This document shows, one piece after another, positions 24,908-25,339 of a stretch of DNA of 42,878 nt. How positions within the stretch are numbered: the first letter of the stretch is position 1; every line of letters begins with the position of its first letter. A program made the position numbers and the translations under genes. The stretch is from Dehalococcoidia bacterium. Its GTDB lineage: Bacteria; Chloroflexota; Dehalococcoidia; Dehalococcoidales; W498. The stretch is taken from NCBI GenBank assembly GCA_011191875.1, contig DUFC01000031.1, forward strand, positions 1 through 42,878. The letters are read 5' to 3'. The notes under the pieces are model-generated. The model worked only from the letters and a program-made list of their open reading frames with translations, was not told where the DNA came from and did no database searches.

Positions 24908-24977
24908 TAATTCACCTCTCTAAATATAAGAATATTCCAACGGTATTCCTAATTAAGGTCAATTTAAGAGTAGTCCG

Positions 24978-25040
24978 GAGGGGTTTTGCCCCTCTTTTTA
25001 TTCTCTCTCCCTCATGACAGGGATATATATTCCTATCATG
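24978..25040 (+). repeat. modular repeat, copy 3, with nested AT-rich palindrome
   Basis: GAGGGG (24978-24983) pairs with CCCCTC (24989-24994), followed by T-rich DNA and CTCTCTCCCT. A 28-bp near-palindrome then runs from CATGACAGGGATA to TATTCCTATCATG (25013-25040). The palindrome is shared with 41789-41814. Confidence 0.65.
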
Positions 25041-25043
25041 AAA

Positions 25044-25303
25044 AGTGGAGGTCACTTTGGGAAGTGCCCTCCACTGATCGGTCTATTATATCTCGAGCCC
25101 AACTCACTTGCGGTGTTCACCACCGCATGAGGTCTCTCTTTCACGAGACTGACCTCTAACTCACTCTACCGAGCCGAGTTCGAGTTCCATCTGCCCCGCC
25201 TTCCGGCAGGGCATCTACTGTCCACCTGCCACACTCCGAACATTGCATGAATCCTCATTACGCATCTCCCGGAGTTAGATTCAATTGCTACAGGTGATTC
25301 CTT
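25044..25303 (-). ncRNA. candidate structured RNA or long 5' leader upstream of the M16 peptidase gene
   Basis: Five successive hairpins lie in the direction of transcription: ACTCCG/CGGAGT (25233-25275), GCCCTGCC with GGAA tetraloop and GGCGGGGC (25193-25212), GAGGTC/GACCTC with an inner TCTC/GAGA (25129-25156), TGCGGTG/CACCGCA (25109-25127), and AGTGGAGG/CCTCCACT with an inner CACTT/AAGTG (25044-25075). A promoter candidate lies just upstream. It matches no RNA family I can recognise; a riboswitch, small RNA or repeat debris are all possible. Confidence 0.4.
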
Positions 25304-25310
25304 CATACTA

Positions 25311-25339
25311 ATTTAACCACAGTTTGCTTTAATTGTCAA
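25311..25339 (-). promoter_or_regulatory. promoter candidate for the structured leader
   Basis: On the minus strand, a perfect TTGACA (25339-25334), a 17-bp spacer and TTAAAT (25316-25311). Confidence 0.55.

Follow-up and report, generated by a model that had tools for sequence, protein, structure and literature searches.

The arrest peptides SecM, MifM and RAPP, which are encoded upstream of Sec/YidC genes, contain a signal sequence through which secretion is monitored. In the pyrBI and pyrE attenuators of enterobacteria, a translated leader and a hairpin precede a pyrimidine gene; the leader open reading frame (ORF) of pyrBI reaches the terminator, and UTP-dependent pausing is sensed. The RNA rnTrpL belongs to the trp operon leader, and the corresponding peptide peTrpL has several Trp residues. 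This attenuator-derived leader peptide reportedly acts in trans in Sinorhizobium meliloti (PMC7298713), and the cyanobacterial yfr6/Downstream-peptide RNA of ~250 nt carries a short conserved ORF and has its conserved structured element in the 5' untranslated region in front of this ORF (PMC2864571). Here, we describe a structured RNA with a short, conserved ORF (mini-ORF) on the minus strand of a 42,878-nucleotide stretch of DNA from a Dehalococcoidia bacterium of the order Dehalococcoidales (contig DUFC01000031.1; hereafter the window), which we compare with these systems and with TnaC of the Escherichia coli tna operon (PMC8429421). Genomes, contigs, loci and families are referred to by G, C, L and f numbers where needed.

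Judged from sequence, the minus strand at ~25304-25040 comprises promoter, structured body and terminator, giving an RNA of ~265 nt, and looks like a self-contained transcription unit. An earlier note on this DNA had proposed a new structured RNA; this proposal is supported by our analysis, and the mini-ORF, with the consensus [MV][RK]LHxx(F/Y/L)GVWQVD-x, had escaped that note. We favour, with a probability of about 50%, a leader-peptide RNA whose adjoining hairpin P2 would be controlled by a ribosome that pauses near codons 13-15; both the pause and the signal behind it are what we infer from the arrangement. As in TnaC, the ORF is short, the peptide contains Trp and Asp, and a ribosome at or near the stop codon would control what follows. 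The present element differs from TnaC by its 14 residues, the D13-x-stop ending, a hairpin 1 nt past the stop, a replaceable W10 and, mostly, the lack of a constant downstream gene. Unlike rnTrpL/peTrpL, it has a single Trp and no biosynthetic operon downstream in most lineages, and unlike yfr6, its structured domain lies 3' of the ORF, at a constant distance from it, with a terminator at the end. The order seen in pyrBI/pyrE (translated leader, hairpin, pyrimidine gene) recurs only in those lineages in which the element precedes a gene for orotate phosphoribosyltransferase (OPRT), and, unlike in pyrBI, the ORF mostly stops >100 nt before the hairpin. Nascent-chain control would be a point in common with SecM, MifM and RAPP, as would the position of the cis copies before secreted proteins, but the 14-mer has no signal sequence.

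The coding evidence was assessed on a table of 84 out of 101 model matches, leaving out 13 short or truncated matches, three weak 20-nt secondary matches and one duplicate locus (L030, the same site as L140). Since L062 and L098 are identical, one of them was dropped from the codon, promoter, terminator and codon-15/spacing tests. Counting back from residue 13, the start codon is found at a distance of exactly 12 codons in 83 of the 84 RNAs. Among the 84 peptides, 69 have G at position 8, 62 have W and 14 have R at position 10, 79 have Q at position 11 and 76 have V at position 12; position 13 is occupied by D in 80 cases and by P in the other 4. Residue 9 is V in all 84, an invariance that is partly by construction as positions were anchored on the first bases of the model. 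The natural P13 variants (L117, L124, L126 and L132) carry GVWLFP or GVWFFP instead of GVWQVD. The ratio of nonsynonymous to synonymous variation (pN/pS; 83 sequences) amounted to 0.34 over codons 2-13 and dropped to 0.17 over codons 8-13, compared to 1.15 and 1.79 in the other two frames and 0.96-1.04 in adjacent non-coding stretches. These values argue for a translated short ORF under selection at the amino-acid level, as expected of a ribosome-arrest leader peptide. A type I toxin peptide was considered and rejected by inspection, as MRLHxxYGVWQVDS is short, charged and devoid of a transmembrane stretch.

The end of the ORF is less constant. A stop codon directly follows residue 14 in 54 of the 84 ORFs and comes earlier in one, and the remaining 29 read on, up to 33 residues in the longest case and to 30 residues in the window. 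Codon 15 (n=83) is TGA in 29, TAA in 15, TAG in 9 and a sense codon in 30 cases; the use of all three stop codons speaks against recoding, and together with the sense codons at this position led us to reject selenocysteine insertion or another recoding of the stop by P2. The distance to P2, on the other hand, is nearly fixed: in the 84 RNAs, the hairpin starts 7 nt after codon 13 in 57, 6 nt in 24, 8 nt in 2 and 5 nt in one. In 36 of 42 loci from the class and phylum, the first GCC is found 7 nt past codon 13, at positions chosen by a score that rewards a nearby hairpin. An unfixed stop position is expected if the decisive event takes place at codons 13-15 and the C-terminus is unimportant; taken together, the selection on amino acids, the constant length from start to residue 13, the constant gap to the hairpin and the unfixed C-terminus fit a pause at codons 13-15.

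The structure following the ORF is supported by folding and by covariation. A minus-strand segment of 394 nt folds with -151.1 kcal/mol (z = -8.0), the plus strand less well (z = -5.6), and in both cases none of 100 shuffles was as stable. The earlier note had described a GGAA tetraloop on an 8-bp stem with one G-U pair, which we found as described (P2). Over P2 and the adjacent three-way junction, 24 of 33 pairs show two-sided changes among 29 sequences, and 88.9% of the cells pair; none of 500 shuffles reached either value, and slid partners gave at most 48.9% paired cells and 17 pairs. Part of this 33-pair structure was chosen on the same alignment, which favours it. In an alignment of 101 matches, which was fitted to the model, 93.6% of the cells pair and 21 of 22 pairs have two-sided changes. 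Compensatory changes among relatives, on which the proposal of a structured RNA depended, are thus present in both P2 and the junction. A helix between the 5' end of the RNA and codons 2-4 (P1) is weakly supported by the relatives: at least 6 Watson-Crick pairs can form in 21 of 82 loci, compared to a mean of 11.9 and a maximum of 19 in 200 re-dealt controls, and a count including G-U pairs (48 of 82) falls within the control range (mean 41.9, maximum 50).

The hairpins claimed earlier are real, and the best interpretation of the one at 25044-25075 is that it terminates the RNA. A strong terminator is present in 81 of 83 relatives, compared to 0.2% of shuffles, and its stem ends 186 nt (interquartile range 181-190) past codon 9; the one in the window has a short T tract (TTTCATGA) and one mismatch in the stem. 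At the other end, the minus-strand promoter reported earlier, TTGACA and TTAAAT separated by 17 nt and followed by the hairpins, could be confirmed directly in the sequence. A promoter-like pair with at least 9 of 12 matches is found in 73 of 82 related loci of the order, at a nearly constant distance, compared to 7.9% of shuffles, so the promoter in the window is beyond chance. A TGn extension precedes the -10 box in 54 of 77 relatives with at least 8 of 12 promoter matches. At the level of sequence, then, we could demonstrate a promoter, coding selection, fixed ORF length and spacing, helices, a terminator and three placements of the element; the features in the window are collected in Table 1.

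Table 1 Features of the structured RNA in the window.
Feature	Position	Strand	Details	Basis
-35 box	25334..25339	-	TTGACA	sequence read; promoter kept in relatives
-10 box	25311..25316	-	TTAAAT, 17-nt spacer, preceded by TGG (TGn extension)	sequence read
Candidate P1, 5' strand	25296..25300	-	GAATC versus GATTC of mini-ORF codons 2-4; 5 pairs here	weak
Shine-Dalgarno sequence	25265..25270	-	GGGAGA	sequence read; similar motif in 82/84 relatives
Mini-ORF	25166..25258	-	MRIHAMFGVWQVDSRCPAGRRGRWNSNSAR, then stop; conserved part codons 1-13 (25258-25220)	
Hairpin P2	25193..25212	-	GCCCTGCC-GGAA-GGCGGGGC, begins 7 nt past codon 13	6 pairs, all cells paired
Three-way junction P3, outer and inner stem	25092..25184	-		13 pairs, 8 two-sided, 89.1% paired
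P3 closing pairing	25180-25184 with 25092-25096	-		fold and covariation
Junction hairpin P3b	25129..25156	-		9 pairs, 8 two-sided, 77.6% paired
Junction hairpin P3c	25110..25126	-		5 pairs, 4 two-sided, 95.1% paired
Intrinsic terminator, RNA end	25040..25075	-	AGTGGAGGGCACTTCCCAAAGTGACCTCCACT, then TTTC	sequence read and relatives

The RNA appears to be new. All 4227 Rfam families were searched at their gathering scores without a match in the window or in 20 related loci of the class and phylum, in agreement with the earlier note, where it fitted none of the RNA classes considered; in 20 cis loci (see below), the sole match was a transfer RNA (tRNA). A permissive Rfam search of the region gave four weak hits (E 0.36-9.6), the best of which (E 0.36) lies on the plus strand. 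A lysine riboswitch for the divergent lysA gene was rejected, as the RNA is on the opposite strand and matches no Rfam family. Among the papers listed by searches of the open-access PMC literature, none describes this RNA or a GVWQVD peptide by title and abstract, and a term search of an arrest-peptide survey (PMC10987492) found neither Chloroflexi, Dehalococcoides nor WQVD. These searches support a structured RNA that was previously unlisted.

In order to assess the distribution of the RNA, related genomes were searched by DNA and by model. With 277 bases as a DNA query, 34 of 101 related genomes gave a match. A DNA pattern run over a species-level genome collection hit 27 contigs, 26 of which are titled Dehalococcoid- or Chloroflex-; the remaining one (L082, JABMRW010000038.1) is titled Deltaproteobacteria, has the same hit region as G095 of the order and is probably mislabelled. 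The model R1, which covers 144 positions and is based on 29 of the initial 30 loci, matched 80 of 156 genomes of the order, 63 of them once; among the 80, G069 has only a short cis-type match, and G146 is doubtful and lacks the mini-ORF. In the class, R1 matched 71 of 393 genomes, 51 of which are outside the order. With the models R2 and R3, which represent the module of mini-ORF and hairpin (E-values of R1-R3 are rough), we obtained matches in 86 of 156 genomes of the order at E 0.01, and across the phylum in 27 of 400 at E 1e-4 and 43 of 251 at E 1e-3. Of 19 loci from the phylum search (18 from other classes, plus L300), 17 have a GVWQVD-type frame and two read VCQVD and VWQED by eye; 18 further phylum loci carry GVWQVD, VLQVD/VLQID or RWQVD. 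In most of these phylum loci, the frame ends with a stop at position 14 or 15, downstream of which lies a GC-rich hairpin and, in many cases, a terminator. Three of the weak R3 hits (24-31 bits) of family f127 were inspected (L337, L338 and L340), and all three have R-W-Q-V-D. Two copies of the RNA were noted in each of G148 (L062 and L098), G037, G007, G036 and G005; the two in G148 have similar scores and seem identical over mini-ORF and hairpin. A phage, plasmid or viral origin was rejected, as a single pattern scan of viral contigs gave no hit and neither did two distant blastn searches of plasmids and phages. So far, the RNA has been seen only in Chloroflexota, other phyla having been probed by a single DNA pattern biased towards Dehalococcoidales.

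Copies of the module without the junction were found in cis. When the 156 genomes of the order were scanned for (F/Y)GVWQVD with an exact 21-base pattern, 45 contained it, compared to none for the reversed control. From 31 regions fetched around copies lacking the junction, 27 were counted as leaders, excluding L209 and L216 (not leaders) and L212 and L213 (degenerate). By a heuristic of our own, applied alike to cis loci and controls, an ORF resembling a signal-peptide gene starts within 520 nt in 25 of the 27 cis loci (24 with a Shine-Dalgarno-like motif), compared to 7 of 26 standalone loci (4 with the motif), 32 of 216 random places (8 with the motif) and 0 of 23 on the opposite strand; this matched control strengthens the link to secreted proteins. 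Several cis copies among L188-L218 follow a coding region ending in NDRASSIS or similar, and a candidate upstream element shared by cis copies (GGCTTCATCC) was discarded, being in several of them the end of the preceding coding region. G065, G085 and G078 have seven, five and six module matches, respectively, hinting at a possible regulon of secreted proteins.

In other Dehalococcoidia, the same protein is encoded downstream in 12 of 40 inspected loci, its predicted start lying 174-230 nt past codon 9. By sequence, this protein is an OPRT (PDB 2wns, E 3.2e-31); its NCBIfam match has an E-value of 1.9e-37, yet lies below the cut-off of that model, and Pfam gave nothing for one of the proteins and a sub-threshold phosphoribosyltransferase match for another. 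L300, of the same class, also precedes OPRT, and L261 a PyrK-like gene. This type of OPRT is nearly absent from the order of the window (2 of 156 genomes, weak). A stem of at least 11 bp is found 11-48 nt before the OPRT start codon in 10 of the 12 loci; these hairpins appear terminator-like and leave little room for another promoter, and mostly they are not textbook terminators.

Standalone copies have varied neighbours. In 27 named loci, a downstream ORF was found in 25, co-oriented in 17 of these; by reading, they include four rhomboid proteases, two ribulose-phosphate epimerases and two UPF0182-type membrane proteins, of which a profile check backs one rhomboid and one epimerase. Two genomes of family f86 (L221 and L239) have a nusA-like gene downstream of the RNA in the same orientation, confirmed by profile for L221. 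Overall, the RNA is mostly standalone in Chloroflexota and sometimes precedes other genes.

Under the leader-peptide reading, the working core would be the translated leader ORF of 13-14 codons (..GVWQVD-x-stop) together with P2 at a fixed distance. The ribosome would make the nascent peptide and pause with codon 13/14 or the codon-15 stop in its decoding sites, where it would abut or melt P2 and thus cover or open it; the change in P2 would then alter the folding of the three-way junction and thereby the fate of the transcript. In most lineages, the RNA would end at its own terminator, and the product would be the short RNA or its paused ribosome, an output that may act in trans in the standalone class. 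In some lineages, the cassette is placed as a leader before OPRT or secreted-protein genes. Before OPRT, attenuation or a similar leader control is probable because a hairpin resembling a terminator is usually found immediately upstream of the start codon.

Several observations weigh against this reading. The W10R variants are one, since the W12R change abolishes stalling in TnaC (PMC8429421). By eye, no conserved antiterminator pairing was found between P2/P3 and the terminator; an alternative pairing of P2 with the terminator through a shared GCCCU/AGGGC core was dropped, as by eye it is missing in many species. Standalone copies, including the one in the window, have no consistent downstream target. 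R1 found no match in 76 of the 156 genomes of the order, and the 11 family f9 genomes listed in the searches of class and phylum have none either, so the RNA is dispensable. In the OPRT lineages, most of the hairpins are followed by 8 bases with only 2-5 T, and a good stem is missing from 2 of the 12 loci; the weak T tracts make attenuation there less certain.

The best surviving alternative is a dual-function small RNA that would base-pair in trans with mRNAs and encode a peptide with a job of its own, as exemplified by SgrS/SgrT and RNAIII/hld. Its own promoter and terminator, the single match in most genomes that have it, the varied neighbours and the strong selection on the peptide would all suit such an RNA. 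However, the most conserved stretches are coding or paired, and no unpaired conserved seed was noticed, albeit without a dedicated target search; in addition, extensions of up to 19 residues beyond residue 14 are tolerated, and cis copies of the cassette lack the 3' half. We regard this explanation as possible but rather unlikely. Somewhat less likely still, and put forward as speculation, the phylum-wide standalone RNA could serve to hold a ribosome, with the conserved nascent GVWQVD peptide arresting translation next to a hairpin and the arrested ribosome-RNA complex acting in trans and sensing the translational state, the cis-leaders of OPRT and secreted-protein genes being later recruitments.

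Alternatively, the released 14-residue peptide could be the product, as a signal or enzyme modulator, with the RNA structure setting only expression and stability. The low pN/pS over codons 2-13 and the constant length from start to residue 13 would agree with this, but the fixed spacing of P2 and the covarying junction would be left unexplained, and the 29 of 84 ORFs extending beyond residue 14 also speak against it; we consider it improbable.

In the earlier note, the hairpins were seen as leading toward the gene of an M16 peptidase, and a cis-acting leader or attenuator of this gene would be supported by M16 directly following in the same orientation, both in the window and in the congener L005, by the short T tract of the terminator in the window and by the leader arrangement before OPRT elsewhere. 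This role did not hold up: the terminator-like hairpin ends ~130 nt before M16, with a dispersed palindrome in between, and neither M16 nor lysA of the window was found beside the RNA in any of 28 loci of other genera (tblastn, flanks of up to 1.5 kb), L005 being the sole case among 29 other loci that keeps both. The RNA having its own terminator and varied neighbours, an M16 leader is very unlikely. The intervening AT-rich palindrome (CCCTCATGACAGGGATATATATTCCTATCATG, ~24996-25041) has two more partial copies in the genome (C22:30557-30601 and C25:133132-133167) and is, by sequence, a dispersed hairpin repeat outside the RNA. The upstream region of M16 also contains a terminator-like hairpin on the plus strand (GGAGGGGTTTTGCCCCTC followed by TTTTTATT, 24977-24995) with no plus-strand gene end nearby.

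A divergent housekeeping RNA (6S, signal recognition particle (SRP) RNA or transfer-messenger RNA (tmRNA)) missed by Rfam is hardly credible: the 6S (RF00013) and small bacterial SRP (RF00169) models, the large bacterial SRP model not being included, do find nothing in the 94% complete genome (G000), which would leave room for one, but neither 6S nor SRP matches the region even at E 10, the tmRNA lies elsewhere (C26, 148.9 bits), ARAGORN finds no tRNA or tmRNA in the window, the consensus is a hairpin plus three-way junction rather than the long rod with central bubble of 6S, and the conserved ORF, the shortened cis-leaders and the absence from many genomes do not suit such an RNA.

For a phylum that is mainly known through metagenomes, the present findings provide an additional RNA family, built around a conserved coding core. 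Leader-peptide theory does not predict that an ORF of 14 codons stays under amino-acid selection across many families, in most of which no constant gene follows. The cis copies before OPRT and secreted-protein genes provide testable reporters, and the natural D13/P13 and W10/R10 variants point to residues that may be relevant for ribosome arrest.
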